This document shows positions 165 through 61,519 of a stretch of 64,000 nucleotides of DNA, piece after piece; the first letter of the stretch is position 1; each line of letters begins with the position of its first letter. The DNA is from Deuterostichococcus epilithicus (Eukaryota; Chlorophyta; Trebouxiophyceae; Prasiolales; Stichococcaceae), in contig JAVTLE010000023.1 in assembly GCA_033439295.1 (NCBI GenBank), positions 992,001 to 1,056,000 of the forward strand. Reading direction: 5' to 3'. The notes under the pieces were generated by a model that saw only the letters and a list, made by a program, of their open reading frames with translations, had not been told where the DNA came from and did no database searches. Position numbers and translations under genes: made by a program.

Positions 165-511
165 GTGTTGCCACTCACGATTGCAGGAGATGGGGGGCAG
201 CTGCGGGGGCGATGACGAGATGCTGCCTCCTCGACAGCGGGCCGGCCCAGCAGCGAGCCCTGACAGAGATGGCATCGAATGCTCGTCACCGCAATGCAGG
301 AGATGGGGGCCAGCGACGGGGGCGGCGATGGCGGTGCCGCCTCGGAGGCAGGCCCTGCGGCGAGTCTGACAGAGATGGTATCGAATGCTCGTCACCGCAA
401 TGCAGGAGATGGGGGCCAGCGACGGGGGCGGCGATGGCGGTGCCGCCTCGGAGGCGGGCTCCGCGGCGAGCCTCGACGACGGCGAGTTCGACAAGTACCT
501 GGCAGAGCTCA
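165..511 (+). repeat. Triplicated exon start, unit about 106-113 bp
   Basis: The segment holding the acceptor and the first part of exon 406 occurs three times in a row, with exon-start equivalents at 187, 300 and 406. The 300 and 406 copies are nearly identical over about 70 bases; the 187 copy has decayed. All three keep the AG acceptor followed by GAGATGGGGG. The last copy continues into the longest open exon, so the two upstream copies are read here as duplicates inside the intron. Confidence 0.75.
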
Positions 512-981
512 GCCAGAGCGGCGGTGGCGGGGACGGCGACGGCGGGAGCGAAGCAGGTGAGCAACTGATCGAGAACAGCCAAAGTCCGCTGTGTGCAAGG
601 CACTGTGGCCGCTCTGGACGCTTAGGCGGGCGGTCGCCCCAATGGCCGCGGTGCAGTTGCCGAGGTGCTGGACTGGTGCTTGAGCTTCCCCGCTGGCTTT
701 GCAGAGACAGGGTTTCACAGGGTTTGCATGTGACGCAGGCAGTTGGCTTCATCACCTGCTTCCGTCGCTTGCGGTGGTTGTGGACAGTGATCGGTTCCCA
801 GCCATGTCGATTCCCGGTCCACGGTGACTCTGCGCACCTGGTTGTATGTGTCACAGGTAGCGGAGAGGAGGTGGAACTGGACCTCGAGGAATACATGAAC
901 GCCATTGCCTCGGGAGACGATGCGGCATCGGACGGCGGCGGCGATGACGTTGTAGCAGAGGAGCACACGCCAGCATCGTAG
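406..981 (+). CDS. Acidic Gly/Asp-rich protein, 3' part only
   Basis: Two exons are readable, 406-556 and 857-981, joined GT-AG in phase 1 and ending in TAG at 979-981. The visible 91 residues are acidic and Gly/Asp/Glu-rich, with two short helical-looking stretches (around FDKYLAELSQ and LDLEEYMNAIASG) inside low-complexity sequence. No domain is recognised. Upstream exons must lie before 406 or outside the window; a possible acceptor stands at about 68. The region just upstream carries two extra copies of the first 100 bases of exon 406 (listed separately). Function unknown. Confidence 0.5.
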   Translation, partial: EMGASDGGGDGGAASEAGSAASLDDGEFDKYLAELSQSGGGGDGDGGSEAGEQLIENSQSPLCARHCGRSGRLGGRSPQWPRCSCRGAGLVLELPRWLCRDRVSQGLHVTQAVGFITCFRRLRWLWTVIGSQPCRFPVHGDSAHLVVCVTGSGEEVELDLEEYMNAIASGDDAASDGGGDDVVAEEHTPAS

Positions 982-6203: not shown

Positions 6204-8870
6204 GAGCATGCATGGCGCTGGCGCTTTGGCCGGCGCTGGGCGGCGGAGCAGGCGAAGCAATTCGACCCCAATTACGGCAAGCAGGCCGGCGACGAGGACG
6301 GATGGGACGAAGCCCTCGGTGAGAGGTCCCTTTTTCTTTGTTGACCGTGCCTCACATGTAGTCCTGGACACCGTGGGAAGCTGCCGTGCAAAGTGGGGCA
6401 TGGCAAGCGGGCGGGTGCGTCCTCACGCCGGGTTTTCCCGGGTTTGGGAAAACCCAAACACACAGCTCGCCGCAAAGACTGCATCTGCCGATGCGGCCCT
6501 CTAGCTGCTTTGCCCGCAACGCCGGTGACCTGTGGCGCTCAGTACTGCAAACTTCATGCACGATGCCGTCCCTGCCGCAGGCCACATGGATGCGTGCAGC
6601 AAACCCATTCCCCTGCAGATCAGGCGCACTTGCAGTGCTGCCCTTCTCGAACTCTGAAGCGGGGCTCACCCTGCCGCGCAGGCTACCTGGATGCATGCGG
6701 TGGCGGCATCCATCTGCAGATCGGGCGCACCATCAGCGTGGACAAGACGCTTGGCAAGGCGTCGCTGCACCGCGATGGCAGCGGCACCAGCTTCATGCTG
6801 GACGGCGAATCCCTCCAGGACGAGGTGTGTCGAAAATGGAGCCCGAGGAACCCTTTCCTGTCCAGCCATCCCTAAGAGAACCTTTTCCAGCCGTGACGAC
6901 AGCGGCACCGCCTTCATGCTCCTCGGCAGGTTGCTCCAGGACGAGGTGTGTGCCGCATGTTCCGCTGTTTTCGAGTTTTCATGCGATGCATGCTAACCCT
7001 TATTGATACGCACTGCGACAACAGCAACGGGAACATATCGCCGCAAAAAATGCTTGATTGATGGCGATTCCCTTCGGATGGGTGGCAACATGCATCAAAG
7101 GCGGCACGGTGCATCACACTTGCAGGTTCTGCAATGTCCCTGCCCAAAGCTTCGCTATTCCTCGGCCCTGTCCCTTGCCACTGCTGTTTCGGTGGCCGCC
7201 GCTCGGCTGCGGGTTCTGCCAGCTCCTGCGCCGCTGCTCCCCTGCGCCCTCAAATCAGCCTCCAAACTCCCAGCCCCTGGCCCGCCAAGCCTGGCGGCGA
7301 TGGCACGCAACCCCCTGTAACCCTCCCGGGAACCCCCCGACCCAAACCCTCCTCGGACCAGCCTCCAAGCAACTGAGAACGGCATGCAGGGGCCACTGTC
7401 GCGGGGGAGCAGCGACTATGGCGCCACGCGCAGCCTGGGAGCCATGGCGCGGAAGGCCCAGGAGCTGCTGCGGCACCAGAAGGAAATTGACAAGGACGTG
7501 GCGCGCCAGTGGGGTGACGCCCGCGCTGCCGGCGCCTCCTGGGCCGGACAGGTGTGTGCGCCTCCGTTTCACGCTGGATTCCACATTTGGAGCCGCAACC
7601 TCTGGCCGCAACCTCTGGCCGCAGATCTGCTTTCAGGGGATGTACTAGGTTCAAATGCTCTGAGTCTGATCACTCTGGCTGCTGATTTGCCCTGGGACAG
7701 CCAGGGGGGCTGGCTGGTGCTGCGCGGCGTGAGAAGAGAACGACAGCGCCATGCAGCCAGCGAACATCTTCGTCCACGCCTGCTACCAGCAGAGCAGGCT
7801 CACCCAAACAGAGGCGTGTGCGCCTGCATGCTAACCTGGCGCGCTCAGACCGGTTTCGCTGGCCCACGCAGTTCCTGCCAGCGGTGACGATCGACATGCA
7901 CGGCCGCTTCCCCTTCGTGCTGCTGCGCGCATCGGACCCGACCGGATCGCACAAGCTGCTGGTGCGCGGCAAGTACGGCTGCACCCAAGTCCAGCTGCTG
8001 CAGGTAATTTGCCTCTTCCTCCTTCCTCCTTTCTCCACCTTGCCGCCATTTACACTGTAGCAAACGCCTTTTCTCGTCAAGTTGCTGGCGCGCGGCAAGT
8101 ATGGTCCAAGTGCTGCTATGCAGCCCTTCCAGTCCCTTTCACAGACGTATTCCTCACGAACTGTACTACTCCTGCTGCCCGCAAAGTCTTGGGTTACAAA
8201 GTGCAAGAGCCAGCGTGGCCTTGGCCTCTTGTAATCGATGCACCGGCGTGCACCCTCGTCCCTGTGCCCGCTTGTCGTGGAAGCGCCCTCGTCTTGATGC
8301 AGTTCTCGGTGCTGATGGGCTGCCTTTCGCTGCGCATGGCAGGCGGCGAAGCAGGAGGCGGCGCAGCAGTCAGCGTCCCGGCTGGTGCCCACGGCGACAC
8401 TGGCCATCATTGGCAGTGGAGTCATGACCTGGAGCAACGACCGCGACCGCTGCGTCAACGTCTCTGACGGTGCGCTGCGCTGTGACTCCCGCCTGCCCAG
8501 CTGCCTGCAGCTGCAGATGCACCCTGCGCCGCTTCATCAACCCTACAGCCGGCACCGTCGCCGCGGCCTCGCTGTCAGCGTGCTGGCTGCCGCCAGCCCA
8601 TGTTTGGGCGAGGGTGACAGCCCAGCCCCGCGCTGTGACACGAAGCAAGGAGGTTGCCAACATTCTGTACGATGATGACGAGGGACAAGGAGAAAAATCG
8701 CTTGTGCCCATCGTTGAGTGCGCCTCCGCCTTCGCGCAGGCCGCGTGGTAAAGGGCGCGGACAGCACGGTGCGTTCCAATGCGGATGCAGCACGGCTGGC
8801 GGGCGCCCTCACCTCCTGCTCCCTGCCCATGAACCACAAGGTCACTGTGGACGGCCAGCGCCTCATGTGA
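6204..8870 (+). CDS. Multi-exon protein with PHPT1/Janus-like C-terminus
   Basis: Six exons (6204-6318, 6682-6824, 7390-7551, 7812-8003, 8343-8469, 8740-8870) stay in phase and end in TGA at 8868-8870, for 289 residues; the first Met exon is not found. The N-terminal half (EHAWRWRFGRRWAAEQ..., IHLQIGRTISVDKT..., a charged helix ARKAQELLRHQKEIDKD) is not recognised. From about residue 155 it resembles the 14-kDa phosphohistidine phosphatase family: LPAVTIDMHGRFPFVLLRA and KLLVRGKYG match the IDxDGxFKYVLIR and EIVRGY blocks, followed by a beta-strand and a C-terminal VTVDG. The catalytic His expected just after the RGxxW-like block is not visible (the sequence there reads GKYGCTQVQL). Catalysis is therefore doubtful. 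Two of its exons have decayed copies in adjoining introns. Confidence 0.5.
6571..6640 (+). repeat. Ghost copy of exon 6682 start (upstream)
   Basis: This segment resembles the acceptor and first 60 bases of exon 6682-6824 (gcag, then a TGGATGCxTGC block, then CTGCAGATCxGGCGCAC). It lies about 100 bp upstream in the intron. It is interrupted and out of frame. Confidence 0.65.
6888..6952 (+). repeat. Ghost copy of exon 6682-6824 end (downstream)
   Basis: This repeats the last 55 bases of exon 6682-6824 with its donor: CAGCGGCACC, CTTCATGCT, then CTCCAGGACGAG followed by gtgtgt. It lies about 120 bp downstream in the next intron. Together with the 6571 copy it flanks the real exon on both sides. 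Confidence 0.75.
8074..8125 (+). repeat. Ghost copy of exon 7812-8003 end
   Basis: The exon end AAGCTGCTGGTGCGCGGC...CTGCTGCAG recurs about 120 bp downstream as a copy with AAGTTGCTGGCGCGCGGCAA, a small deletion and CTGCTATGCAG. Confidence 0.7.
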
Positions 8871-9999: not shown

Positions 10000-12900
10000 A
10001 TGCGGTTGCTGGAATTTACTACGCAAAATGTGGCTGTCGGCTGTCTGGTGTGGCGCACATGCAATGGACTGTTGATTCAGACGGCTTTCAGCCCGGACGA
10101 GTACTGGCAGAGCCTCGAGGTGGCGCATCGCCTGGTGTTTGGGTGAGCAGATCTGGTTTCAAAGCACCACACCGCTGATGCTCGCAATCATGATCCGCAT
10201 TCCAGTGCATCATTGGCGCCTACGCCGCGCAGGTACGGCCACCTGACATGGGAGTGGGGAGCAGGCATCCGCAGCTACCTGCACCCATTGATATTTGCGG
10301 CGCCCCTTCAGGTAAGCTTCTTCTTGAAGGTCGCAGCCCGTTGTGCCGTCGCACCTTCAAGCCAGAGTGGAGCCACCGATGCCGCCGCTGCTGGCCGATC
10401 GGCTCACTCTGCGCCGCTGCACCCTCAGGCGGTCAAGCTGCTTCGCTTCGACAGCGCCTGGCTCGTCATCCGCGCGCCGCAGCTCCTGCAAGCGGCTTTT
10501 GCCGCCGCCACCGATGTCTATGTGTACCTGCTGACCCGCCAGCTGTTTGGCGCCGCAGCAGCAGGGTGCGCCGCGCCACACTGCTGAACCGCTGTGCCGA
10601 CCCGGGCACTTCAGCCACTGACTGCGGTGTCGTGGCACCACAGCATCGCTGACATGCAAAAGCATTTGCGTCTGGTGATACTCACAGTGGCCACGTCTGC
10701 GGTGCGGACCATTGCCTTGCAGCACGAGCATCTCCTGCGTCCAGGGATGCTCCATCGTGCGCCGGTCTGCGGCACCTCAATCAGGGCTTCCATGAACTGC
10801 TTCGCAGATGGGCGCTGGTTTGCCAGCTGGCGTCCTGGTTCAACGCCTACTGCCTGGTCCGCACCGTGTCGAGCGCTCTGGAGGCGACCGCAGCGGCGGC
10901 GGCCCTGTATCACCTGGCCCGCTACAGGGCCGCCGATGCAGCAGCCGGCGGGGCGGGCGGCGGCAGAGCAGCCGGCAGCGGGGCCGCCGCCAGCGGGGCG
11001 GCAGGCGGCCGGCAGCTGACCGCGGCGCTGGCCGCGGNCGGGCTCGGCGCTGCAGTGCGGCCGCCCAGCCTGCTGTTCTGGCTGCTGCCCGGTGCGCGTC
11101 AGCCGCCGCCTCCTGGCTGAGAGGCATGTGCATGCTGTGTCGACAAGCCACCTCATGCCAGATGCAATTGTGCACGGTGCGTTTCTGCCCTGCAGGGTGC
11201 CGGGGCATCAACCCATTCCTACGCCGGTTGTCCCGACCTGTAGCGGATGATGTGGATGTGCGCAGGCCTGATGGAGCTCCGGCGACCGGGGGTGGCAAGG
11301 TTGGTCCTCCTGCGGCAAGGCCTTGCCGTTGGCGGCGCCGTGGCGGCGCTGTTGTGCCTCATCGACAGGGCGATGTACGGCAGGCAAGCAGCAGTGCAAC
11401 GACCCTCAAGCCTGGCACCGCATAATCTCCTGTCGCATCTCCGCGCCCAGTCTTTGCCCGGAATTGGCATGTGGCGCGGTTTCTCAGGAGCGCCACGGTA
11501 CCTCGCTGACACCACGTGCCCGCTCTGCCATGGCGTGGCTGCAATCACCACCTGACTCGGGTTCAGGGTTCTACAGCAGCCGCGTGAGCGCAGCCAGGGG
11601 CACCACAAACCCCGGGACAGGCCTGATGTCTTCCCAGCCCCTGGGCGCCGCAGGTGGCTGTTTGTGCCGTGGCAGTTCGCCAAGTTCAACCTGCTGGCAG
11701 GCGGCAGCGCACGGTACGGGTCCCACGCCTGGCACTGGAACCTGAGCCAGGGGTTCCCGGTCGTCGCCGCCAGCCTGCTGCCCCTGGGCGCCGCCGGCGT
11801 GGCGCTGTCCGGCAGGCAGGGCCCCTGGTTCCACATGCACCTCCGGTTTGGCAGTACTCACTGCATTGGTACGACCTGCTGCAGTGCCTCCAGCCGACTG
11901 TTCCACCTCCAACACCAACTACGCACGCATACATGTTCCACACCTTCACCGGAGAGATGCCAGCGCTCGGACTGTGGGGTGGCTCGGTGACGGGGTGGTG
12001 TCGTGAGCGCTGGAAGCACACTGTCATGAGTGTCGAACTTTTGCCGTTCGGCGGCGGCGCGCTGGCGTGAGCTGGCGCTGTTGGCGGCCGCCGGAAGCGC
12101 AAAGCAGCGCAAATTTTGACTGGAAAGCCGGCCTTATCTCTGCGGCGCATAGCTGGGAGCTGGCGCTGTCACTCAGCGACCGCTGAAAGCACGAAACGGA
12201 AGCAGAACCGTGCTGACTACTTCTCACGACGGCCATCATTGTGCTGGCGATGTGCAGGCGGGAGCTGGCGCTGCTGGCGGCCTGGAGCCTGCTGGTGTAC
12301 AGCCTCCCGTCGCACAAGGAGTTCCGCTTCCTGCTGCCGGCGCTGCAGCTCATCATGCCCTACTGCGGCGTCGCGCTGGCGGTGCTGTTCGAGGGGCAGC
12401 CGCCGCTTCCCGCTTCCGGCGGCCAGGCGCGGCGGCCGGAGGCCATGCGGCAAGGCGCGCAGCCGACCGACACTGGGGCAGGCCAGAAGCGGCGACAGCA
12501 GCGACATCCATCTGAGGCGGGCGCCCAGGCGGATCCGGAGGAGCGGATGGCGGCGGCAGCATGTCGTGTTGCGGCACCCGCCACAGGGCTGCGGCAGCGG
12601 CGGGCGCATGAGGCCGTGCCGAGTGATGCTGCAGCAGCCGCCGCGGCGCCAGGCGCGGAGGNCTGCTGCAGCAGGTCAGCTGCAGGGGCGCGGCGGCGGC
12701 NGCGGCGGCGGTGGCTGCGGGCGGCGGCCGCTGCGGCGCTGCTGCTGCAGCTGCCGGCTGCGGCATTCTTCTGCCTGCTGCACCAGCGGTGCAGATATCT
12801 CCGGCTTGCTGACGCAACGTGTATCATGCAACGGCTCTCGACGGAAGGTCGACAGCGGATGGGCACAAGGCGACCTGGCATGAGGACACCACCTCCTGCG

Positions 12901-18267: not shown

Positions 18268-20903
18268 CTAGCCCTCATCGCCGATGTCAGCCAGACGGCA
18301 GCTGACCCGCCACAGCTTTTCAGCAGCCGCCCTGTTGTCTGCTCGTGGCGACGCGGCCATCACACGCTTGTTTTTGATGAACTGAGCCGCAACCTGCGGC
18401 AGCAGAAGGCCATCACCACGAAGCTGTCTCTGTGCTCATTTGCTTGAGCTCCGAAGAGCGCCTGTCTGGCGACCCGCTTGCTCTGTCTTTTCCTACAATA
18501 GGGGCGCGCCCTGCGCCATGAACAATCGCCCGCAGGAGCACTAGCGTCATGCTATGCGAAACCTCAGTTTGCCTCTCCAGTGCACTCCACGCGTCTGTCA
18601 CGGACAAAAGGAATGCGGCAGCACACCTGGTCCGCCGGCGCGGCAGCCACCAACCGCAGAGTGTCTCCGGCAGTTGCCGGCGGCAGCACGAAATGCAAGC
18701 CCTTTTAGGGTTTATGTGCTCCTTCATGGCCAGTATCAACATGGGCGGCGGCTCACCTGGTCCGCCGGCGCGGCGGCCGCCCACAGCAGCGTGTCAGTGG
18801 CGGTTGCTGGCGGCAGCAGGATCCAGGACAGCACCAGGTCCACTGCGGGGCGCAGCAGCAGGCGTAGCGGGCGCGGCACCTGCGGCAAAGCCCCCGCACA
18901 TGTCAGACTGTTGCGCCAAGCCCTGAAAGCTGCCAGGGGCCCTAAGACGGTGTACGCCCCCCGACACCAAAGGCTCTGCAGGAGAGCTGCAGTCGGTCTG
19001 ATAGAGCAGCGGTGGGGTGTACCGGACCAACTTTCCAGCCTTGGCGCATTACGACTGGCATTGCAGCGCATGAGTTGACAACCGGCAGCGGCAGCAACAT
19101 GCAAGCAGCCTGACCGGTCGCCATTTCCAACAACAACAGATTTGTCTGCACCTCGGTGTGGAAGTAGTCCCTAGCTAGCTGAGTGTCCAGCACGCCTGGG
19201 TCAGCCGCCACGGCCGTATGACCGCTGCCGGCGCTGCACCAAGCAACGCTGAAGTAGGTGGTAGACTCGAGGGCCATGACGAAAGTCAGCATGCGCAAGT
19301 CACAGCGTGCCACAAGCTGCCAAGTCGGATTCTAGCATCCAGAGACCATGCCGGACCCTGGTGACCCTGAAGGCCTTTGCCGCTTGAGGTCCGTCTGTGA
19401 GCTGAGCTGTGTTTTCGGTCAGCCTCCTGCTTCGCTGCCGCAAGCCAAGCATCACTTCTCGTCGTGCAGAGTGCGGCTTCCAACAGTCTTGCTTCTGGCA
19501 GGCTGGCTAGATTCAGCTGGCGGGATTTGGCGATTCACCTGTCGAATTGGCGCTGAAAGCTGCGGACGGCCATGACCACCGCCAGCTTGCTGTCTGCGTA
19601 CGACTTGAGCGGACTGTAACGTTGCCTGGCCTGCATGGAGGCCAAAAGTGCCCTAAGCAGCAGGAAGCAGCATTGCCACCAGCGCGCTGAACGATGGTGC
19701 ACGAGTTCATGCAGACTACAGAGGGCAAAGCCTTCTCCAATGTCCATTATGAGTGAAACTGCTACAATGACAATTTCACTGCTGCAGTGACAAGCGATAG
19801 CGAACACATTTTCATTACCTGGAGGTCTTCAAAGTTCAGTTTGCCGCCGCGATGCGTCAGCGAAGTAACCATGACTAGGCGGCTGCCGCCACCAGTCGAG
19901 CCTGAGCTAGCAGAAGCAGCATGACACCACTTCATCAGATGGTCGCACCAAACACACTGCTGTGGCCTCATGCCACGGTCTGCCGCCTGCTACGTTGCTG
20001 GAAAGGAGATCCGCAGGAGAGGACAGATTTGCCCCGGAGCTCTAGGCGCACGAATCCCTGTACATAAACAGGGTTCACAGGGACCATTCGGCCAGACCGA
20101 CCTGCCAGCGTCAGCACCTGGTGTTGGCGCCGCCGGCGGGGCGCGACTCCAGCAGCAGCTCGTGCGCCAGCAGCCAGTGGCCGAGGTAGTTCACCTGCGG
20201 GGCCGCGGCGCCGTGTGACGGAAGCCGCATGACAGCAGGTGTGCGCGGCCACACTGACGGATCCGCCGCAGGCTGCCTCCGAGGTTGGTGCCTGCAAAAT
20301 GGCGCCTGTTGGGAGTCTGCTTGACACTCGCGAGACAGGCAGCACCTGGAATTGCTGTTCGAGGCCATCGGGCGTCTCCCGCCGCGTTTCCGGCGCCATG
20401 ATGCCGGCATTGCATATCAGCAGGTCCGGCCGCCGTGGCAGCCGCTTCGCGAACGCCCTGACGCTGTCCAGCCGCGACAGGTCCAGCTGCTCGAAGCGGA
20501 CACTGCCCGCAGCGCAGCCGACCAGCCCGCCGCCGCTGCCGCCGCCGCCGAAGCGGGTTTCGTCACCGCTGATGCCGCCGCCGCTGCTGTCACGTTGCCT
20601 CAACGAGGCTCTGACCTGTTGCGCAGCCGCCTCGCCTCGCGCCGGCGAGCGGCATGCCATCAGGACCGTGGCACCGCGCTGGGCCAGTGCGCGTGACGTG
20701 TCCAGGCCTACCCCCGCATTTGCGCCAGTAACCACGCACAGCTTGCCAGCGAAGTCGCCGTCTGCTGCATCGGCACGTGGTGCTGAATGCCTTTGGAGTG
20801 TGCGGTCAATGAGATTGATGCGCGCGTTTTGAACCAGCTCAGGGATTGCGCTAACCTTCAGCAACAACAGCCTAGCCCAGTCCGCCATCGAATCTGTGAG
20901 CAT
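18268..20903 (-). CDS. Short-chain dehydrogenase/reductase (retinol dehydrogenase-like)
   Basis: Seven exons (20903-20346, 20194-20118, 19882-19819, 19630-19539, 19224-19152, 18879-18757, 18393-18268) total 1113 bases, 370 residues. It is a classical SDR: Rossmann motif TGANAGVG near residue 59, LDLSR then ICNAG, VNYLGHWLL, the catalytic Ser in VTSLTHRGG, the catalytic YxxxK as SYADSKLA, and VAADPGVLDT after the active site. The C-terminus (KLWRVSCRL) matches the RDH11-14/WWOX-like branch. It should reduce or oxidise a carbonyl or alcohol with NAD(P)(H); the ARS-type basic residue after the second strand (ACRSPARGE) favours NADP(H). The substrate is unknown. The N-terminal 25 residues are hydrophobic and may anchor the protein in a membrane or organelle. 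A Gly/Ser insert sits near residue 115. Confidence 0.9.
18616..18690 (-). repeat. Ghost copy of SDR exon 18879-18757 end
   Basis: The last 60 bases of exon 6, coding LPPATATDT...AAAPADQ and followed by the donor, recur in the following intron as a copy that would read LPPATAGDTLRLVAAAPADQ. The copy also ends CCGGCGGACCAG followed by gtgtgc. It lies about 130 bp downstream of the real donor. Confidence 0.8.
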
Positions 20904-39496: not shown

Positions 39497-39555
39497 GCAT
39501 TGATCCTGGACTGCCCCAAAGAACGCTAAAGACTCGCACATTGCTCATATATCCA

Positions 39556-48809: not shown

Positions 48810-51800
48810 TCAGATGCGCCTGATGTCCACCCTGCAGCGGCGGTCCACCCGGTGCGGCGCCGGCGCATTGGTCGCCGGCGCCTCGCCGGCCAGCGCCGCT
48901 TGCGCCTCCTCTGCCACCCGCAGCTGCAGGTGCGCCCACGAGCCGCCGGTGATGCCCTTAGCCAGCCGACCGGGGTTGAGGCACACCACCTGTGCGGTTG
49001 GACGTGCGACGTGAGCCAGTCTCTCGCACAACCTGGTCCAAGTTTGGCAGGTCGCCATGTTTGGTCTGTCACACATGTGTTAATGCTCTGATGCTCAGGA
49101 GCAGCAGCAGGCGTTGAGGTCGGATGACAGCACCACGAGATCTGGTGGCAGCAGTGCCTTGTAGCGTCGGCGACAGCGCAACTCCTGGTTCCTGACGCCC
49201 TCAGGGGTAAGGAGCATATCGCAGTGGCTCCGAGATGACACAGGTCCCTCGTACCATTTGGCGTTGGTGCCGGCAGACAGCATCTTGATAACTGCCGCCA
49301 GGTCGGACGGCAGCGCCAGGGGCTCCGTGCAGCAGAATTTCCCGACACCATGGTTGCACGTATACTTTGAATGGTGCCGCAACACCAGCAACAAGAGGAG
49401 ACGAGTTCTTGGCACCTTGGCATCGGCGCCGGCGGGCAGCAGCTTGGCAAAGGCCGCCAGGTCGGATGGCAGCACCAGGATGTCTGGCGACTTGTCCTCC
49501 GGTAGCGGCAGCCCGGAGGCCGCCAGTGAAGTGTCCAGCGTGGAGCCCGGCGGCGGCGGGAAGACCGGGAAGTAGCTGTGGGCGCATGACAGCCGGCGTC
49601 AACCTCGGCGCGTGCCAGGCTGCAATCTGGGACTCCTCTTCAGCCAAGGGCTCGATGCACATGCTCGGCAAGTGTTCCCACTCATCTGCAGGCGGGCGCC
49701 CCGCTCTCCGGGACATGGCATTGCCTCGAGCACGCGTGAGCGATGCCCGCACATCTGGAAAGTCACGCCTGTGCGGCTTGATTTTCCCGTTTGGCACCCC
49801 AAGTTCACCTGCGCTGAGTGAGGACCTGCGCTGCGATGGCGCCCAGGCGGTCCCCGCCGCCTGCGGCTTGCCGCGCCACCTCGTTGGTGGACATGGCCTT
49901 GATGACGTCCGCCGTCACGAGCCCCACCACCACCTGAGTGCGCACAAGATCATCAACTGTGATTGTGCTGCAGGGTGGCTGTTGAGGGACGACCTTGGCT
50001 TTGTTGTGGGTGGAGATGGCCTCGATGACATCTGCCGTCACGAGGCCCACCACCACCTGAGGGCACACCAAGCCCCATGCGAGCAAAGCCCCTGACGTGG
50101 GACACACCATGTGCACAGGCAGCATGACTTGGAATGCTCGGACTGGAGGTTGGAAAGAGCGGTGCAACCCGCAGCTGCAAAGGGTCTGGCAGAGTCGGCA
50201 CAGCTACAGCATATACAGCAAGCATGTGCGCGCACAACACCGCTGCCGCCACGGGCACAAACCTCGCCGAGTCTGAAGGTCGCGGGGTTGGGCAGCATGG
50301 TGACGTTGTCCGGCAGACCGCCGCCGGCCGTAGGGTTGTGACCGTCCCCAGGCCATGCCAGTGGCGGCGTTGGAAACACCGGCGCGGCGACGACGTCCCG
50401 CGCGCTCGGTGCCAGCAGCACGTGGGTGGCGGGGAAGGCCGCGGCAAACTCGGCGACGCGCGCCAACACCTGGCGCAACGAGAGCTTGAGGGATTAGAGT
50501 CGGCGAGTCGTGGCAGCCAGCTGCAGGGTGCATGCACGGCTGCTGCAGCGCCTGTCGTGCGCTTTTGAAGGTTCAGGTTCAGGTGCAGCTGATGTAGGTG
50601 CCGGTGGCTTGCCAAAAAGTAGATTGCTCACATCACAAGCGGGCAGCCGGCTGTGGGACGAGCTCTGGCCCCCTCGCCCTGACAGGTTCTCGGCGCACGG
50701 CTGGTGGCCTGGCCCGGCGGCAAATTCAAGACCCGCAAGGGCATCATGAGAAAACCCTAAACTCTCGTTGCCCACCTGCTGCTCAAAGACCTGCTGTAAG
50801 GGTTGCTCCAGCTGCCCATTGGCTACCAGCTCGTGCCCCGCGTCCAAGAATGGACCGGCGAGTAGCAGCGCCGCCGGCGGCCCGCCCGGCAGCGCCTCGC
50901 AGCACCGCAGCAGCTCGGCCAGCGGCTCAAAGTCCAGGTCTGCTGATGTGGTGAACGGCCCGGCGGCGATGACGATTGACATGGGCCGCCCGCCTGCCAA
51001 CCGAACAGCAGAAGTCAAGACGACACAGTTCTGCACAGGAAGCGACTTTGTAGCGGCTCAGAGTCCAGGTCCTCGGCCATGGTGGAAAGGCCCGGCGGTG
51101 ACGATGATGGACGTCGGCCGGCCTGCCTGCACAGCCAGACATTGCTGGCTAGCATGCTGGTGTACTACTGTCGTAAAAAACTCTGGTCTTCGACGACCAG
51201 GGCATGCACAATACATGATGTCCTTTACATAAATGTGAGAGCTGCATGCACGGCAGAGGCACCTGCCTGGCCGCCCGCCGCCCGCCCCCTGCACCCTGGT
51301 ATGACATGTGGCACATCCGAGCCCGATTTGGCACCCACGAGAAGGATCCTAAACCCCTATCAGCCTGCCTGTCCGGCGGGCCAGCTCCGCCAGCTCGGCC
51401 GGCCGCGTCGCGTGCAGCGGCGGCGGCGCCCCCGTTTGCAGCTGCGATGCCAGCAGGCACGCCCCGGTCGGGTTGACGCCTGTCACGCCGATAATCTGCG
51501 GCGGGGCAGGCAGCGCCATAATTGAGTTTTTCTGTTGTTAATAACTTCTATCTTGTGCACCGACACGGATTGGGCGACCGGTGCGCCTGAGATGTCAGAG
51601 GCTGTGCACTGTAGCATGTGTCGTGGTTGTACAAGAGAAATTTCATCTGAAGCATGGCAGGTCCAACAGCCAGATACGGCAGTCTGGCCGCGCACTGGGG
51701 AATGAATATATTCTTAATCGAGGGACAGCAGTGACTGTTGCTATGCAGGAACAGCGTTGCACCTGGCCGGTGAAGACGCGCACGGCGGGCACTTTCGACA

Positions 51801-54732
51801 GGTCCAGCCTGACGCGCGCCCCGCCAGAAGCTGCCAGACCGCCCTCCAGCTGCACGGACGCCTCGTTGAGGCGGCCCTCCCCAATGTCGCAGCAGACGCG
51901 GCCCACGAACAGCCCCGGCGCCTGCGCCATTTGGAGAGAGGGTCATCCCTGGGTTGGAGCATGCACTCAGTGGTTCACTGGTTCAATCAGCTGGCCTCGA
52001 TCAGCTGGCCGGCCTGTCGCTGCCGCCGCACGCACTCCCAAGGCTCGGCCAGCGACGGCGAGCAGCAACACGGGGGTGCATGCTGACTTCCCAGTGCTTG
52101 ACGATTTTCAGCACAGAGCAAGCGGGCAGTGCACAGGCCCCAAACACCTGCTGCAAGGCATCGCATGCACTCCGCTCGGCACACTGTGAACCTGTCTCAA
52201 ATGTCGTGAAATGGGCAGAGCCCGTATTGGCAGAGCACGCAAGCAGGAACGCAATATGCGAAAACAGATGTGCGCCGTCTGAACCCTAGACCCTACAACC
52301 TAAACTAATCTGCACCCACCTGCGTGGCTGCGGACACCGGCTGCGCGGGACCCAGCCCCTGCGCTTCCAGCGCCTGCGCAAAGTCCGCGATGCGCCCGTC
52401 CAGGTACGCCACCTGACGCCAGGGAGATTTGAACTCGTCATTGGCTGCCAGTTGCAGTTGACAACGTGCAGTCGAGTTGCGAATACGGCCTGAGTGCCGT
52501 GCTGGTTTGCGTGTGCCTTGGCAAATCCGCAAAGCGCTGTCCAGGCATGCCACCTGAAGTAGTTCCAAACGCAAGATGGCCATCAGAGTACATCAGTGCT
52601 CCAACGGCCTGGATCTGTACCGACATCACTCTTGGCTGAAACTCGGCAAGGGCACTGCAGCGCGCCGCCGACTGCCGCCCAGCGCGCCTGTGTCGTGCCG
52701 CAGCACGGCATTCATAGGTGTTTCCTTGGGACTAGTGTGCTTGCGCTTCGCCACCCATGCTACCGACCATGCAGCCCGCCCTGGCGCTTTGGGTGGGTGA
52801 GCCTCTGCATCAACGACGGTTGAGCCCGCCTGGCCGTCCAGGTGGTTGACCAGATGCGCGGGCCCGGCATCAGGAATTGCCACTGGCCAAAGCACATCTT
52901 GTGAAATGCTCAGGACAATCGAATTCCCCGATCCAGATTGTCCTCATCGGCAGCGATAGCCGCCTTTCTCGTGTCACCCTGTCCATGGGCGGTCCACCCT
53001 GTAGCACTGGCCCGGTGCCGGGTGGCCGCTGCCAATCACAGCCCATTCTGGGATGCACATGACTGCATGATACAGCATGATACAGCACGCGTCAGCAAGG
53101 GGAGCTGTGCCCCCACCTTGTCTTCCAGGCGGTCGACCATGTAGCGCTGCCCCGGATGCGCACGGTGGCCATTGCCGACCAGCTCAAAGGCGCACCACCC
53201 AGGGCCGGCGCCGGATGCGGCACCCTCCTCCATTGGCTACGGGCACAGGCGCTGCTGTTCCGGATGTGGGTCTCATTCAGATCCGATTGTGACACACGAC
53301 CAGAACGCTGGCCAGATGTGTGCCGAGATGTTGGCGCCGCCGGCTCAAGCTGCGTCTCTCACCCATTCCTGGCGGTGCCGCTGGCATGCGAGCATGCGGC
53401 ATCCGCAGGCACAGCTTCTGTTTGTTATCACTATGCTGCGAAGGCATTCGCAACAGCGGCATTCACATCATATGCGACTGCCATGCGCAGCTTGGTCCCT
53501 CACAACAGGCTACAGCGCACCACGGCGTCATTCTCCGGCCGGATGTGCTCGTTCAGCGTTGCCAGCACCTGGCCACTCTGCAGCGCACAGCACAACACCG
53601 TCACTGAATATTCCGAGCTCCCGCCTGGTGTCGTCGGTGCCGCGCCGAGCAGGCTTTCAGAACTGGCAGCTACATTCCTCACTTGGGCAAAAGACTAGAC
53701 GCTGGCGACATATTGCCCGCTAGTGGACCAGTAGGTCGTGTATCGACCGCCATCCTTCACTCTTCTGAGGTGTCCTTGAATGTAAAGGAAATCTTAGCTG
53801 AACTATATCCGGTGTAGGCGCTGGACAGACCCGAGCACTTTGCCATGCTGCCAGTGCAAGCACAACCTCCTAAGAATTATGCGCGCCAAGCAGGATCAAA
53901 AGCTGCTGACCTGTGCCCGCTCCTTGAAGGCGCTGGACAGACGCAAGCGCTTTGCTGCGCTGCCGTCCGCCTCGCCGCCGCTGGCGGGCTGCTTCTTCCC
54001 CGGCGTCGGCGTGCGCACCTGAGCCGGCGAGTGGCCCAAGTTGCTGTGGTCCGCCAGCACGCTGTGCAGCCTGCACGGCAAGCAAGCGGCACATCCAGAG
54101 AGTTGACGAGAACATGTGCTTGCTGCGCGCCAGACAGGGCATGGTGGCACCCAGATGTACGACAGGGAAACGCCAGCTCCCACTGCCGTTGATCGCACTG
54201 AGATCCCTGTTCGGATCCTCCTGCAGCTTGGGGCGCACCCGCCGGACTTGGTGCTGGGCGGCGTCTTGACGGCGGCGGGCCGCGTGGCGGGCCGCGCCGG
54301 CGTCGGCACAGTGCGAGTTGGCGGCGCCTTTTTGAGGTGGTCCTGGAAATGCCCCATCGTCTTCGCAGTGACGCTGCTGCCGGCGTTCCTGCATCTCCAC
54401 GGCAGGCGGTTTCGTCAGCAGGTGCTTCTGTGCTTGAATGAATGAGCCAGCGGTGACGCTGATCTGGCCGACTGCGACGCCGCTGACACCACCAGCCGGA
54501 GGCGGACATGCCGTGGCGACAGCAGAGCTCTGCCTGCGCCGGTACATCAGACATAATTTCGTATGGAGACGCACTGGTGCAGGGCGAACAGGTCGTATGC
54601 CTCGCTGAGCTCTGCGGCACTGATCCCATACTGCGCCGTCAGGTCGATGCAGCGATCGATCACGTCCTCCCCCTGCAGCTGAAACTGGTTACGCTTGAAG
54701 GCTGTAGCCACCTCAGCCTCCGTCGCGGCCAT
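48810..54732 (-). CDS. POLA2: DNA polymerase alpha subunit B (primase-polymerase complex)
   Basis: Regulatory B subunit of DNA polymerase alpha-primase, acting at replication initiation in the nucleus. Thirteen exons: 54732-54575, 54388-54239, 54043-53911, 53577-53521, 53236-53117, 52412-52320, 51921-51763, 51495-51369, 50993-50776, 50469-50263, 49933-49809, 49575-49416, 48989-48810; 1887 bases, 628 residues, normal for the family. Order: N-terminal helical domain (FKRNQFQLQGEDVIDRC), Ser/Thr/Pro linker, RYMVDRLEDK, OB-fold with GLFVGRVCCDIGEGRLN and GVNPTG, then the phosphoesterase-like domain: IVIAAGPFTTSADLDFEPL, LLAGPFLDAGHE, LLAPSARDV, VTMLPNPATF, PDILVLPSDLAAFAK and VCLNPGRLAKG. The domain is catalytically inactive in the family. 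Intron 8 uses a GC donor. At least seven introns carry decayed copies of adjoining exon ends. Confidence 0.93.
49111..49157 (-). repeat. Ghost copy of POLA2 exon 49575-49416 (second)
   Basis: The segment would read LLPPDLVVLSSDL on the minus strand, echoing SPDILVLPSDL of the real exon. It lies about 320 bp further along the same intron and is shorter and more decayed than the 49257 copy. Confidence 0.5.
49257..49332 (-). repeat. Ghost copy of POLA2 exon 49575-49416 (first)
   Basis: The segment would read LALPSDLAAVIKMLSAGTNAK, a clear copy of LVLPSDLAAFAKLLPAGADAK at the end of the real exon, about 160 bp downstream in the intron. At the position of the donor it has tggtac rather than gtgcc, so the splice site is lost. 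Confidence 0.8.
50005..50060 (-). repeat. Ghost copy of POLA2 exon 49933-49809 start
   Basis: The acceptor and first 55 bases of exon 11 (CTCAG then GTGGTGGTGGGGCTCGTGAC...) occur a second time 124 bp upstream as CTCAG then GTGGTGGTGGGCCTCGTGAC, reading VVVGLVTADVIEAISTHNKA beside the real VVVGLVTADVIKAMSTNEVA. It is about 88 percent identical by eye and its acceptor is intact. Confidence 0.88.
51055..51133 (-). repeat. Ghost copy of POLA2 exon 50993-50776 start
   Basis: The copy reads gcag then GGCCGGCCGACGTCCATCATCGT...GCCGGGCCTTTCCACCATGG...GACCTGGACTCTGAGCCGCT, parallel to the real exon start coding RPMSIVIAAGPFTTSADLDFEPL. It lies about 130 bp upstream, carries an AG acceptor, and is frame-broken. 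Confidence 0.85.
52513..52558 (-). repeat. Ghost copy of POLA2 exon 52412-52320 start
   Basis: The copy reads cag then GTGGCATGCCTGGACAGCGC...TTGCGGATTTGCC, beside the real cag then GTGGCGTACCTGGACGGGCG...TCGCGGACTTTGC. Offset about 141 bp, upstream of the real exon. Confidence 0.75.
52828..53042 (-). repeat. Two ghost copies of POLA2 exon 53236-53117
   Basis: Segments at about 52828-52890 and 52978-53042 both resemble the exon part coding NGHRAHPGQRYMVDRLED (plus-strand order GGCGGTCGACCATGTAGCGCTGCCCCGG). Both lie downstream of the exon in the same intron, spaced about 145 bp from each other and from the exon. That regular spacing suggests serial tandem duplication. Confidence 0.65.
53815..53868 (-). 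repeat. Ghost copy of POLA2 exon 54043-53911 end
   Basis: GGCGCTGGACAGACCCGAGCACTTTGCCATGCTGCC parallels the exon's GGCGCTGGACAGACGCAAGCGCTTTGCTGCGCTGCC. It lies about 110 bp downstream in the intron. Confidence 0.75.
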
Positions 54733-56731: not shown

Positions 56732-59700
56732 TCACTTTTTGAGGGCGTCGAGCCGCAGCGTGACAGCCCGCTTGTGTGCGTCCAGCCCCTCGAGCGCCGC
56801 CATGTGGGCCACCGTCGGGCCCAGAGCCCCAAGGCCCTCCGGACTCAGCGTCTGCAGGAGAGCACGCGAATGCAGGAGAGCACGCGAATGTGGTTCGAAG
56901 GCTACGCTCGGTGACTCATCGTCCGAAAAGAAACGCGGCTTCCGCACATGTGAGAAGTGCACAACAGCAAAGCCCTGGGCAGTCATTGACCGACGGAGAG
57001 CGCCACAACAGGCGCATCGCCCTGCGGTCGAGAGGGGCAGCGTTTGCGCCACAAGCAGCCAAGGCGCGAGGCTTGCGCCAGCAAATAGGACCGCACCGCC
57101 GCGGAAGCTGCACCCTCCAGACTGACGCCCCCGTCACGCTGGCACGCAGCAAGGTGCCAAATCCCTAAACCCTAAACCTGCACCTATCAGGATGGTGCTC
57201 ATTTCTTTCCTCACCTGCACCGTCATCTTTTTTTGGAAGGAGTCCAGGCTGACGCCGCTGTACATGCGCGCGTAGCCGTACGTCGGCAGCACGTGGTTGG
57301 TGCCGCTCGCGTAGTCGCCCACGCTCTCCGGCGTCCAGGGCCCCAGGAACACCTGAAAGAATACAATTAAACCCTCGAGTTGTTTCAGCTAATCTCACAC
57401 GTTTACCCGGGAAACCACTACAAGCTTCAGCTACAAAAAAGGTTGAGATAAGAAAAATCAGATGAAACACATTCGATCTCACCGAGCCCGCGTTGTCGAG
57501 CTGCTCCAGCCACGACTCGGCGTCGGCCACATTGACGATGAGGTGCTCCGGCGCGTAGCGGTTGGAGAACGTGACCGCCTCCTCCTGTTGGACGACGTCC
57601 AGAGTTGCATTCAAGGGTTTGTCACGTGTTGATGGCATTGGGGTGTTCTCACATCTGCTGATGACACAGGAGAAGATCAGCACGCAGGAGTTGGAAGAAG
57701 TGGGTGCCACCCCCTGTCACATATAGGCAGACTTGTTTTGTGGGAGGTTGATGATGCACCTCGTGCCCTGCACAACCTGGAAGCTCGCGCAATCCGCTTT
57801 GCGGGCGCAAAGCGGCAGGGCAGCGCGCGTTACGATGGGGTCGAGGCGCCTATGGCGCAGCTGCGGGGCAGCGCCGGCTGCGCGATGTCGCCGCTGGTTT
57901 TGGGGCCCAGGTTTTCAGGGGTCTCAAAGTACGGTAGGTTTCAGTGGGCCAAAGCGCCATAGGTTTCAGGGGTCCTGGAGTCCAACGATCCCTATACCCT
58001 TGGAAAGGCGGCACCCCCACCTTGGAGTCGACGCGCACGACGCAGCTGTGGGACAGCGCCTGCCGGGCGATGTCGCCGCGCGGCAGCGCGTCACACTGCC
58101 GGTCCACCTCGCCCTGCACTGCGTCGAGATCCACGCCCGGCAGCGCCACCAGCACCACCTGCATCGGGGGATGTAATTGACTGAAATGATACGACATATA
58201 GTCGTTTCGATACTTCGAGGAAGCTGGGCTATGTTTCCGTGCCGCACTGCTGGTCGACTTTGTTGTTGCACAGCGTCGAGGTTCGAGCCCGGCAGCGCTG
58301 CCGGCACCGCCTGCCGAAGGCGTGACGGTGCGGTTCGCTGTGCTTCTGCACTCGCAGTGAGCATGCGGCACCGCCGCCATGGACGCTTGGGTGCGCATCG
58401 CCATGCAGGCGCCCGGCTTGCAGGCAGCAGGGCGTGTGACAAGGGGTGGAAAGGAGCAGACTACAACGGTGCAGCGCCTCCCAAGGAAACGCCTGCTGCA
58501 ATGAGACCGAACGACAGCAACCAAATGAGTTTCGGCCAAGTGCAGGTCCTGGGCCGCGCCTGGCTGTCGGGGCCGTGCTCCGCCTGCGACAGCAGGTCTG
58601 CGGCAATGAACACCGGCGACGCCTGCTCGTCCGCAATCACCAGCACCTGCGATCGAACACCAAGATCCACGTCCAAGACGCCTCGCAGTGTGACAGCAGG
58701 CCCGTGAACGTGGAGGACAACGATGGCCTCCCAGTCCGCAATAACCAGCACCTGTACAGGCATGCTGGGTTTAGGGTTTGAGATCTCTCTGCATTGTCTC
58801 TCCTTTCGTCTCTGACAGCCTTTGGTGCAAGGCCCGCATGCGAAAGAGTTTCTCGGCTGCCAGCCGGGCCATGCACACGAGCTGGCATCTGGGGCGGCGC
58901 CTGCTCTGCAACATGCGGAAGTTTGCTGGTGACAGGGCGAGCTGACGATGAGAAATGGCATAGGGGTAGACTATGTGCCAGGTCGCAACTCGCAGGGGCC
59001 GGCGAGCAAATCCATGGAGATCATGGCCTCGCTGAAAACAGCAGCGGAAAGCAACAGCGGCGAAAGAAACACTGAGCGGGAAGATGGGAACAGGAGGCGC
59101 GCCTCGGAGGGACCGGCGGGCATGTCCATGGATATCATGGCCTCACTGTTCTGCAGCAGCATCTTTGCCGCGGTCACGTACTGGTTGCCCGGCCCCAGGA
59201 TCTTGTCCACCTGCGTGCCCAAGGGTCTAGACCATTCGGGAATTCCACCAGGAGGTCAGGAAACCATCGATGACATGAACTGTCGGAGCGGTCACATACT
59301 GCCCAGCCGTGGTTACCAATCCCTTGCCCACCTGCACAGTGCCAGGCCCAGCAAGGGTTTCAGACACACTGACCACTAGGCAGTGCCAGGCTGGGCAAAG
59401 GTTTAGGGGCCATGAACCGGCGCGAGGTCCAATGTGGTCACCGCGCCTGGCAGCCGAAACTGCCAGCGAGCCCTGCCCCTGCTCTGGATTTGACAGCCGC
59501 CCCAAGTGAGCTGTGATCGAGGCAGCCACGGCAGGACGGCGGGCTGCCCGCGCCGCGACGCTGCGAGCTCCCTGCATAAGCCTCTGAACCTCACCAAGCG
59601 TCGGAGAGAACTTGCGAAGTGCGGCTTGACGGAGACAATGAAGAAAAGCGAAAACGGTCGCGCACTTTGGGGCAGGTTTCGGTGCCCCAGGCCATGGCCG

Positions 59701-61519
59701 CCACCGCCTGTGCGCCGCCGGCCCGCAGCACGTGCGTCACACCAGCCTTCCTGGCGCAGTACAGCACCTGCGCGGGCGGTGCGCGACGGGACTCAGGAAG
59801 CCGGTTGCGCACAAACCCTAAACCCCAGGTCGAAGACGGGATAGAACGTGCAGGGTGGGGCGATGCCGACATGGCAGGGTACCAGGGTCCGCCCTCAGCA
59901 TGTGCGTGACCAGTGCAGCACATGCGCAGGGCGTACGAGCAGGGCAACAGACTGGGGCAGTCAGCATTGCGGATCCCCGCTGCTTCAGCTGTCAGGCCTG
60001 CATGTGCGCAGGTGCGCGCAAGACTGGGTCACATGCCGCCGACAAAGCCGGCAGACTCGCTTCCGGGCATGGAGACTGCTTCTTCCGTTGCACCAGCTTC
60101 CGCAGTGTTCGGCTGGTGTCACCTCAGGCAAGTTTCACCTCAGGGCTGATGGAGCCGTCAGAGCGCGGCGGCGTCGCCAGCACGATGGTGGCGCAGCCCG
60201 CGAGCCCTGCCGGCACGCTGAGCATGAGCGCCGACGACGGCAGGATGGCCGTGCCACCCGGCACGTAGATGCCCACCGCGCCTGCAGGCGAACGAGCGCC
60301 CACCAGTGTCTCGCAGCGCAGGCAGCGGGTGGACCGCATGATGTTCTCGGGCATTCAGGCATCCGCCGGCACGCTCAGCATGAGCGCCGCAAAAGGCAGG
60401 ATTGCTGAGCCGCCCGGCGTATAGATGTCAACGCAAGCAGATGATAGGTTTCCTGAACATCGAGGAGGGAGAGCCGCAGACAGCAGCAGGTCTAAGCCTT
60501 GGTGCAAAAGAGTGTCCGCCGTAGGGCATGACACGGCAATGCGGTCGCATCACGGGGAGGTTCCTCCCACCAGCCTCAGCCGCTGCGCGCCGCGCTGCAG
60601 TGTCCGAGTGTCTGAAGATGATTACGATAAACTCGTGAACATCGGCACCTATGGGGCGGGTGACGCGCCGACACCGCACGCCCGGCATCGTCTCAACCTC
60701 CAGCGGCGCGGACTGCTGCGCGGCGTGGAATGCCCGGATGTTGTTGAAGGCCGTGTCGAACGCCGCGCGGCTCTCCGCACTCAGCTGCGCCTCCGGCAGC
60801 TCCTGAAGCAGGTTCAGTGATCTGGAGGATGATCTGGATCCCACCAGGATTGCCGAGGCGCCAAACATGTTTCCATGTCTCAGACGATGACACGGCCACA
60901 GGTACATCGTGCGAACTCTACTTCTTCAGGAGCCGCTCGTCGAGCAGCACCAGCCCGGGCTATACAGTTGCTGCGCCTTTCTGCCGACGAGCTCACCTCG
61001 ATGGGCGTGCACACGACGTCGATGGTCGCATTGTCAAATTTCTGCGTGAGCTCCCTGACCGCTTCGTCACCCCGCTGCTTCACGCTCTGCACGATCGGCT
61101 CCACCTGGGATACGAAGACATTTACTAAAAGGTGAGTGTGCCTGTTTCTGACAACGTGTACCGCTAGGCATGTACAGGAAGCCACTGCATGTGGCTGCCG
61201 TCAGGCTCGCCATGCCCGCAAGATGTGCAAGGCCGGGGCGCAGCGACCTCACCGTGCTGAGGATGGACGCAAAGTCGATGCGTGGCCGCGCGGTGGCGTC
61301 TAGGAGGTCCTGCGCTGACATCTCTGACGCCTTGTACGTCTTGAGAGCCTGCGGCGCCATGACTGCCGCCAGGATGGGGCTGGCCCTGCAGCAGCGCCTT
61401 GGCTGCCTTGTGCTGGACGAGAGCTGCAGGCTGCTCAAGCTAGTCAGCTGACGTGTGTGCTGCAGCTGCTGACCGGGCCACGCTGCCTGCGCTTGGCGCT
61501 TCCCGAGGCAGTAGCTCAT
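56732..61519 (-). CDS. HISD: Histidinol dehydrogenase, plastid-targeted
   Basis: Catalyses the last two steps of histidine synthesis, L-histidinol to L-histidine with two NAD+. Eleven exons (61519-61253, 61104-60997, 60802-60649, 60281-60139, 59767-59666, 59210-59103, 58646-58560, 58158-58021, 57584-57483, 57352-57215, 56851-56732) total 1467 bases, 488 residues. Residues 1-50 are Ser/Arg-rich ([19 protein letters not shown]), fitting a plastid transit peptide. Family blocks: [122 protein letters not shown]. Gln and His of SQAEHG, Asp of GDYASG and the final His of LDAHKRA are the expected zinc ligands; EH of APEHL is the acid-base pair. Introns 6 and 7 use GC donors. Seven or more ghost exon fragments lie in its introns. 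Confidence 0.95.
56858..56891. repeat. 18-bp direct repeat at HisD last acceptor
   Basis: TGCAGGAGAGCACGCGAA occurs twice in direct succession beside the acceptor of the last HisD exon, duplicating the CTGCAG acceptor context. Confidence 0.8.
57163..57178. repeat. Telomere-like CCCTAAA units in HisD intron
   Basis: Two adjacent CCCTAAA units, the plant/green-algal telomere heptamer. Similar units occur in other HisD introns at 58767-58780 and 59812-59826 and singly elsewhere in the window. Confidence 0.7.
57836..57896 (-). repeat. Ghost copy of HisD exon 58158-58021 end (downstream)
   Basis: AGCGGCGACATCGCGCAG...GCGCTGCCCCGCAGCTGCG copies the exon part coding [15 protein letters not shown]. 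It lies about 170 bp downstream in the intron. Confidence 0.7.
58230..58318 (-). repeat. Ghost copy of HisD exon 58158-58021 start (upstream)
   Basis: Would read [15 protein letters not shown] then a frame break, beside the real [20 protein letters not shown]. Similarity continues through GACCAGCAGTG and AACATAGCC. Offset about 155 bp. Confidence 0.8.
58680..58756 (-). repeat. Ghost copy of HisD exon 58646-58560
   Basis: The copy begins cag then GTGCTGGTTATTGCGGAC, nearly the same as the real cag then GTGCTGGTGATTGCGGAC, and later has CCTGCTGTCACACTGCGAGG beside CCTGCTGTCGCAGGCGGAG. It lies about 110 bp upstream with an intact acceptor. Confidence 0.82.
58983..59036 (-). repeat. Ghost copy of HisD exon 59210-59103 end
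   Basis: AGCGAGGCCATGATCTCCAT...GCCGGCCCCTGCGAG copies the part coding [15 protein letters not shown]. It lies about 115 bp downstream. The Met-Pro of MPAGPSE and the exon end have changed. Confidence 0.85.
59283..59336 (-). repeat. Ghost copy of HisD exon 59210-59103 start
   Basis: Would read [16 protein letters not shown] beside the real [16 protein letters not shown], with a matching CTGTGCAG acceptor. It lies about 123 bp upstream, so this exon is flanked by ghosts on both sides. Confidence 0.8.
59885..59930 (-). repeat. Ghost copy of HisD exon 59767-59666 start
   Basis: GTGCTGCACTG...GTCACGCACATGCTGAGGGC parallels the exon start GTGCTGTACTG...GTGACGCACGTGCTGCGGGC with a deletion. It lies about 150 bp upstream. 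Confidence 0.65.
60356..60432 (-). repeat. Ghost copy of HisD exon 60281-60139 start
   Basis: Would read [23 protein letters not shown] and then a stop, beside the real [23 protein letters not shown]. It lies about 150 bp upstream. This is the best-preserved ghost in the gene. Confidence 0.88.

Follow-up and report, generated by a model that had tools for sequence, protein, structure and literature searches.

Copies of exon ends in the adjoining introns of Deuterostichococcus epilithicus suggest intron lengthening by short duplications at splice sites

Partial, decayed copies of exon ends inside the adjoining introns were analysed in a 64-kb stretch of the genome of the green alga Deuterostichococcus epilithicus (contig JAVTLE010000023.1, positions 992,001 to 1,056,000, forward strand; from here: the window). 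Together with 26 further 10-kb loci, the window makes up the 324 kb to which all counts refer unless stated otherwise, drawn from a genome of 46.8 Mb in 21 contigs in which exons of the chlorophyll-binding antenna family (PF00504) mark a photosynthetic eukaryote. A copy of an exon end in the abutting intron is called a ghost; in counts from the gapped comparison it scores at least 16. In the window, ghosts lie in the genes for HisD, POLA2 and a receptor-like kinase (kinase 2), in a small gene at 18268-19061 and in a long model at 4203-13840. An earlier reading of the letters of the window (from here: the original prediction) had listed affected genes, of which HisD, POLA2, kinase 2 and the region called PIG-B hold up. 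In the model it called SDR, at 20.1-20.7 kb, the ungapped scan found no pair, nor did it find one in kinase 1.

Gene models were obtained with a small self-trained hidden Markov model (HMM), seeded with kinase exons conserved between paralogues and then trained on the analysed sequences. Its last training line comprised 662 exons with a median of 123 bp and 590 introns with a median of 223 bp. One exon end, in locus L026, shifted from 473 to 496 between HMM versions. Over residues 5-432, the HisD model can be aligned to histidinol dehydrogenase from a plant (5vlb) with no more than one gap, of one residue, and because of this near-gapless alignment the HisD splice sites are right and the HisD ghosts noncoding. 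Among six models submitted to Pfam, HisD, POLA2, a mitochondrial carrier, RPB10 and kinase 2 matched their own families and one was without any family match. The long model 4203-13840 is probably an HMM fusion of two genes; its second part is what the original prediction named PIG-B.

The copies in the window are listed below with source, lag and identity. Of the lenient gapped alignments, which overextend in many rows, only the clean ones were used.

182..473, plus strand: true tandem array in the first (acidic) gene, period 106, 2.2 copies, not of the gapped kind
6576..6629, plus strand: acceptor-side ghost of exon 6682-6824 (source 6677-6730, lag 101, identity 0.74)
6891..6951, plus strand: donor-side ghost of exon 6682-6824 (source 6770-6830, lag 121, identity 0.79, reaching 6 bp beyond the donor junction)
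8078..8104, plus strand: donor-side ghost of exon 7872-8003 (source 7952-7978, lag 126, identity 0.89; short, 27 bp)
12053..12089, plus strand: acceptor-side ghost of exon 12258-12788, in the PIG-B region of the original prediction (source 12246-12282, lag 193, identity 0.84)
18615..18691, minus strand: donor-side ghost of exon 18757-18879 (source 18745-18821, lag 130, identity 0.83)
34040..34071, plus strand: donor-side ghost of kinase 2 exon 33889-34011 (source 33967-33998, lag 73, identity 0.84)
34990..35025, plus strand: donor-side ghost of kinase 2 exon 34796-34889 (source 34856-34891, lag 134, identity 0.78)
35264..35335, plus strand: acceptor-side ghost of kinase 2 exon 35387-35561 (source 35396-35467, lag 132, identity 0.69)
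49258..49320, minus strand: donor-side ghost of POLA2 exon 49416-49575 (source 49417-49479, lag 159, identity 0.81)
50004..50068, minus strand: acceptor-side ghost of POLA2 exon 49809-49933 (source 49881-49945, lag 123, identity 0.86)
51052..51130, minus strand: acceptor-side ghost of POLA2 exon 50776-50993 (source 50921-50997, lag ~131, identity 0.78)
52988..53015, minus strand: donor-side ghost of POLA2 exon 53117-53233 (source 53128-53155, lag 140, identity 0.86; short, 28 bp)
53813..53852, minus strand: partial copy of exon 53896-54070, past the modelled 3' end (source 53925-53964, lag 112, identity 0.82)
57836..57894, minus strand: donor-side ghost of HisD exon 58021-58158 (source 58023-58079, lag 187, identity 0.81, gapped)
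58267..58314, minus strand: acceptor-side ghost of HisD exon 58021-58158 (source 58115-58162, lag 152, identity 0.81)
58982..59034, minus strand: donor-side ghost of HisD exon 59103-59210 (source 59096-59148, lag 114, identity 0.81)
60363..60432, minus strand: acceptor-side ghost of HisD exon 60139-60281 (source 60207-60276, lag 156, identity 0.79)

The ghost at 18615..18691 holds 65 exon and 12 intron bases without a gap, next to an unrelated spacer (z -1.4), while a lenient gapped match at 60363..60432 spans 120 of the 143 exon bases. Weak pairs occur at 33277-33301, 52372 versus 52515 (E 0.28) and 58621 versus 58726 (E 0.08). According to the original prediction, the exon stays open and in phase and the copy is broken. 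This describes HisD, which is intact against 5vlb, but not the POLA2 ghost at 50004..50068, which is still in frame, so that the HMM called 49994-50056 an exon. With an open frame and HMM-grade splice sites, this segment may be included as an extra exon of 21 residues. The repeat that the prediction had seen in the acidic gene is present as well, but as a true 106-bp tandem array it differs from the other ghosts.

Exon-end copies in introns are confirmed as genuine and widespread in the sample. The tests used 539 introns of at least 60 bp with both flanking exons, that is 1,031 exon ends, and reverse-complement, shuffled and permuted (other) introns as controls. Ghosts were found at 69 of the exon ends, compared to 6, 2 and 4 in these three controls, respectively. 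Same-locus, same-strand introns that are not adjacent gave 8 matches in 1,032, adjacent ones 68 in 1,032. The original prediction had proposed that exon-end copies occur at a density far above that of ordinary introns, and had suggested the comparison with shuffled introns as a check; the high density is borne out, all controls being far lower. Chance or composition as the cause is ruled out by these four controls and by the far-half comparison given below.

Ghosts occur in 61 of the 539 introns, or about one in nine, with a strong dependence on length: 51 of the 232 introns of at least 250 bp carry one, compared to 10 of 307 shorter introns. At least one ghost-bearing intron is present in 20 of the 27 sampled sequences, and the counts over the 27 are compatible with one rate set by intron length alone (chi2 27.9, 26 degrees of freedom). 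Eight introns have ghosts on both sides, where 2.2 were expected without regard to length. Within the window, 19 of 96 tested introns were flagged by the gapped test and 15 exon-intron pairs were found in the ungapped scan.

The copies are in direct orientation. Self-comparison of the window by BLAST with E up to 10 yielded 24 plus-strand matches and 1 minus-strand match at lags of 50-200 bp, and the first 200 kb of the other loci yielded 45 direct and 0 inverted pairs at 50-300 bp (38 bits). BLAST self-comparison is weak near the main diagonal, which we take as the reason why blastn reported few direct repeats at lags below ~75 bp, though a diagonal scan detects them. Lag histograms drawn from BLAST self-matches mislead in that range, and statements on lags rest on the diagonal scan. 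In 264 kb it separated two direct populations, one at lags below 60 bp and one with its mode at 75-150 bp, at an expectation of at most 0.5 per bin up to 200 bp for a score of 19. Inverted pairs with an ungapped score of at least 19 were absent at lags of 60-400.

Events at lags of 60-320 on ungapped diagonals were collected first from 264 kb and then from 324 kb. The first set holds 78 events. Compared to random shifts of the same events, exon-intron pairs were in excess (44, expected 24.6), and intron-intron (8, expected 26.6) and intergenic pairs (2, expected 14.6) were depleted. The 44 exon-intron events comprise 19 at donors and 25 at acceptors, and all 44 copies lie in the adjacent intron, as the lag limit makes likely. 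The 95 events of the second set divide into 45 exon-intron, 29 exon-exon, 11 intron-intron, 6 exon-intergenic and 4 intergenic pairs. The lag is divisible by 3 in 23 of the 29 exon-exon pairs, which thus mostly preserve the reading frame, and in 10 of the 45 exon-intron pairs. For the latter, lags range from 73 to 261, with 39 of 45 between 75 and 160, and the mean identity is 0.81 with a highest ungapped value of 0.91.

Most exon-intron pairs end at the splice junction: 31 of the 45 stop between -3 and +15, and none extends further into the intron. The preference for the exon end facing the ghost is partly built into the event scan, in which the junction was chosen on that side and lags stop at 320, and the fair test is therefore a comparison of the facing and far parts of the same exons. 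In exons of at least 120 bp, the facing 60 bases match in 42 of 569 cases and the far 60 bases in 3 of 569. This contrast is the cleanest evidence for anchoring. At fixed lag, mean identity is 0.62-0.72 over the last 40 exon bases and drops in the intron to 0.43 in bases 1-10, 0.32 in bases 11-20 and 0.25 thereafter. Gapped copies comprise a median of 52 exon bases (range 21-122) and of 5 intron bases (range 0-25), the intron side having been scanned up to 25 bases. In addition, serial ghosts occur at L010 719-1061, L022 7171-7523 and L026 324-700 with a spacing of ~96-154 bp, the same exon end or its ghost being copied twice in a row, as if the junction had been struck repeatedly.

The decay of the ghosts is nearly neutral. 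Mismatches between exon and ghost are spread almost evenly over the codon positions (134:127:149 of 653:653:655 sites), and the splice dinucleotide is retained in 17 of the 31 ghosts that reach the junction; from both we conclude that ghosts drift. Codons with a single change divide into 87 synonymous, 132 non-synonymous and 3 stop changes, compared to a random expectation of 0.30/0.67/0.03. The small synonymous excess (0.39) is what the exon's own silent changes would produce.

How the copies arose was addressed through their spacers and by forward simulation on the real sequences, with constrained exons and drifting introns, eight ages from 0.03 to 0.40 and indel-to-substitution ratios of 0.12 and 0.3. 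Ordinary tandem duplication across exon borders, with a unit equal to the lag of ~110 bp of which the constrained exon part alone stays visible, accounts for the direct orientation and the spanning of junctions, and there are clear cases: junction 1008 of L010 (z 13.2) and, in the window, 182-473. As a tandem unit equals the lag, homology is expected between the spacer and the bases that follow the copy. Such homology reaches z>3 in 3 of 43 pairs (a 44th had too little spacer), whereas simulated tandem copies show it in 88-100% at a per-copy divergence of 0.10-0.20, in 63% at 0.25 and in 28% at 0.30; for the high-identity pairs, 57-72% was expected (divergence 0.15-0.20) and 5% observed. At divergence 0.23 the tandem model predicts medians of 78 exon and 15 intron bases, compared to the observed 52 and 5 (intron limit 25), and it was rejected for every age mixture at both indel settings (p<0.002). 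As a general explanation it is quite improbable. The original prediction of duplications at exon-intron borders followed by decay of one copy is thus upheld, but not in the tandem form it had proposed. Random short duplications with gaps, spread genome-wide, mostly stemming from one old burst and, in the model, tolerated wherever splicing conceals them, would also leave this picture if the intron-intron and intergenic copies had decayed beyond recognition. This model reproduces the category counts at the indel setting of 0.3 with nearly all weight at divergence 0.23 (p 0.16; 0.11 in a second fit) and fails at 0.12 (p<0.002). The gap-to-mismatch ratio in ghosts (0.107) suits the latter setting: at divergence 0.23, simulations gave 0.100 with 0.12 and 0.171 with 0.3. 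Moreover, it predicts 3.3-4.8 pairs extending more than 15 bp into the intron, where 0 of 45 were seen, and random source positions give 22-27% junction-ending pairs, compared to 69% observed. We regard it as unlikely. Among simulated random tandem or insertional copies at divergence 0.15-0.20 (mean identity 0.79-0.83), junction-ending pairs make up 26-41% and the ratio of exon-intron to other pairs is ~0.4-0.8, the observed ratio being 3.0; random insertion of exon pieces is ruled out by these two measures.

The layout of copy, filler and copy also resembles an insert between direct repeats, as short mobile elements, of introner-like or another kind, would leave it if their target-site duplications at exon ends were unusually long, and introners are reportedly found mainly in fast-evolving lineages such as green algae (PMC9860276). 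However, the 41 fillers of at least 40 bp gave 17 non-self matches in the 324 kb, several of which are additional copies of exon ends, compared to 12 for control pieces of introns, and two fillers searched genome-wide match only themselves, so that no multi-copy repeat family emerged from either search. Introner repeats measure 3-9 bp (PMC9860276), those described here mostly more than 25 bp, and we consider mobile elements very improbable. Telomere-like filler was tried as well: CCCTAAA occurs 20 times in introns and ranks 20 of 140 anagrams, which is unremarkable. Selection on the copies as functional decoy splice sites or regulatory pseudo-exons would fit the narrow range of distances, the splice dinucleotide in 17 of 31 and the POLA2 ghost that is still in frame, but is still less probable: constraint on the splice site or frame of ghosts was not found, dinucleotide retention being close to neutral decay, mismatches nearly even across codon positions and lags mostly not frame-preserving, with gaps and some stops present. 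Out-of-register exchange between diverged alleles or homeologues, the intron parts of which had never matched, would account for junction-limited similarity without anchoring. The third-position share of mismatches is 0.36 and thus lacks the concentration expected between two working genes, which leaves this explanation barely plausible.

With about even confidence, we read the ghosts as remains of short gapped direct duplications, most of them anchored at exon-intron junctions and accompanied by background local duplications. A mixture of 68% junction-anchored copies and 32% background duplications fits the simulated categories (G 11.3, p 0.42). Each event would copy ~20-120 terminal exon bases with the splice site and usually fewer than ~15 intron bases, and the two copies would end up with some tens of bases of filler, unrelated to them, in between. 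A break staggered over the splice junction, fill-in and rejoining with filler, or else a template switch at the exon border, could yield such a long direct repeat around an insert. Splicing would keep the outer junction, that is the upstream copy at donors and the downstream copy at acceptors, while the inner copy and the filler would join the intron, lengthen it by about the lag and decay almost neutrally. A direct repeat around a non-homologous insert is what most pairs display, with L010 junction 1008 as an exception. In the mixture fits most weight lies at divergences of 0.13-0.28, which hints at a past period of activity for most copies, a point that we do not press with 45 pairs. The direction of the anchoring is well supported; its exact size is not, because the models assume uniform unit lengths and the HMM annotation. 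A bolder proposal, which we hold to be doubtful, is a mutational process tied to splice junctions as such that copies the exon end with its splice site ~100 bp into the flanking intron. It might act through co-transcriptional or RNA-templated repair and would have been a main contributor to the length of introns in this lineage.

Several observations speak against the junction-anchored origin. The gene models are HMM predictions trained on the very sequences tested, and 14 of the 45 pairs stop more than 3 bases inside the exon, partly through indels. Spacers have a mean z of +1.0, not 0, with p<0.05 in 8 of 43, and some pairs may hold faint homology there, in addition to the plain tandem duplication at L010. 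Junction-anchored copies alone fail to fit (G 110), since they generate no background, and the unanchored gapped model does fit at one indel setting. In a held-out set of ten 3-kb loci around kinase and antenna exons (63 introns), 1 of 122 exon ends reached a score of 16 (reverse-complement 0, shuffled 1), where ~5.5 ghost-bearing introns were expected; at a score of at least 14 it was 7 of 122, compared to 0 and 2 in the controls. Should the rest of the genome lie nearer to the held-out rate, ghosts would be rarer than the sampled figures. In copies as decayed as these, no microhomology at breakpoints was discernible. Finally, we know of no repair process that is confined to splice junctions.

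The origin of intron length is often ascribed to transposons or left open. Here, 51 of the 232 introns of at least 250 bp reveal the source of part of their length, their own exon border having been copied into them. Ghost-bearing introns have a median of 363 bp compared to 221 bp, which suggests that many introns were lengthened by short duplications at splice sites. The original prediction that introns were enlarged by duplications containing exon parts is supported, whereas its further suggestion that introns were created is without clear support. The Rogers signature of intron gain was in no clear excess in 535 introns: the intron end matched the upstream exon end in 4 at a score of at least 12 (shuffled 3, permuted 3) and in 1 at 14 or more (0 and 1), and the intron start matched the downstream exon start in 6 (shuffled 3) and 3 (shuffled 0, marginal), respectively. 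If junction anchoring holds in relatives, the copies would point to a mutational mechanism linked to splicing, serve as markers of intron growth and provide a natural test of competition between duplicated splice sites. A POLA2 scan of viral contigs for sister loci found none.

In 2009, Gao and Lynch, whose work is also named in PMC4974935, reportedly described internal gene duplication with intron creation and common within-gene duplications at exon-intron borders. The internal segments were reportedly longer, and the junction-anchored form with exon ends copied at a lag of ~100 bp is not known to figure in that work. In potato, a single tandem duplication across an intron-exon boundary of an RdRp gene made an intron (PMC4974935). 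The likeness lies in a local, border-crossing duplication of which splicing hides a part; there, the unit was tandem and the intron new, while here the spacer is mostly unrelated, introns that already existed have grown and a signature of the AGGT type shows no clear excess. For new introns of Daphnia, repair of staggered double-strand breaks with filler was proposed (PMC3443670), with direct repeats around inserted sequence as in the present case. The Daphnia repeats are described as short and as flanking new introns, whereas those described here mostly measure 25-120 bp and lie at existing splice junctions. Introners share with the ghosts a mass change of introns, reported from green algae among others (PMC9860276). 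The open-access literature, outside which most subscription papers fall, yielded in titles and openings of abstracts no report of exon-end copies as a genome-wide trait.

The window also contains a pair of receptor-like kinase genes that are paralogues, lie side by side and share their orientation, at 21270-27276 (kinase 1) and 28203-35561 (kinase 2, to which the Pfam kinase matches belong). Intron 34012-34343 of kinase 2 measures 332 bp with its ghost and the equivalent intron of kinase 1 ~215 bp, a single example that agrees with growth by insertion. Two introns of kinase 1 are without counterpart in kinase 2, one between DFG and MSRL and one after VYSFG (~25791-25936 and 26286-26452, where the kinase 2 exons 33889-34011 and 34344-34454 are continuous). 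The ungapped scan found no ghost in either, and they offer a test case for intron gain or loss.

Longer-range repeats in the window comprise an inverted pair of 69 bp, 27 kb apart (14181-14249 and 41448-41515, 84%), and the direct pairs 13961-14153 and 14332-14514 (lag 371) and 16668-16795 and 17289-17434 (lag 621) at 72-73%; these are possibly transposon remains. RPB10, at 55047-55527 with 74 amino acids in the model, is spread across three exons, and a long open exon at 39643-40881, with repeats of 18 bp, encodes a protein of low complexity in which Ala, Gly and Asp abound.

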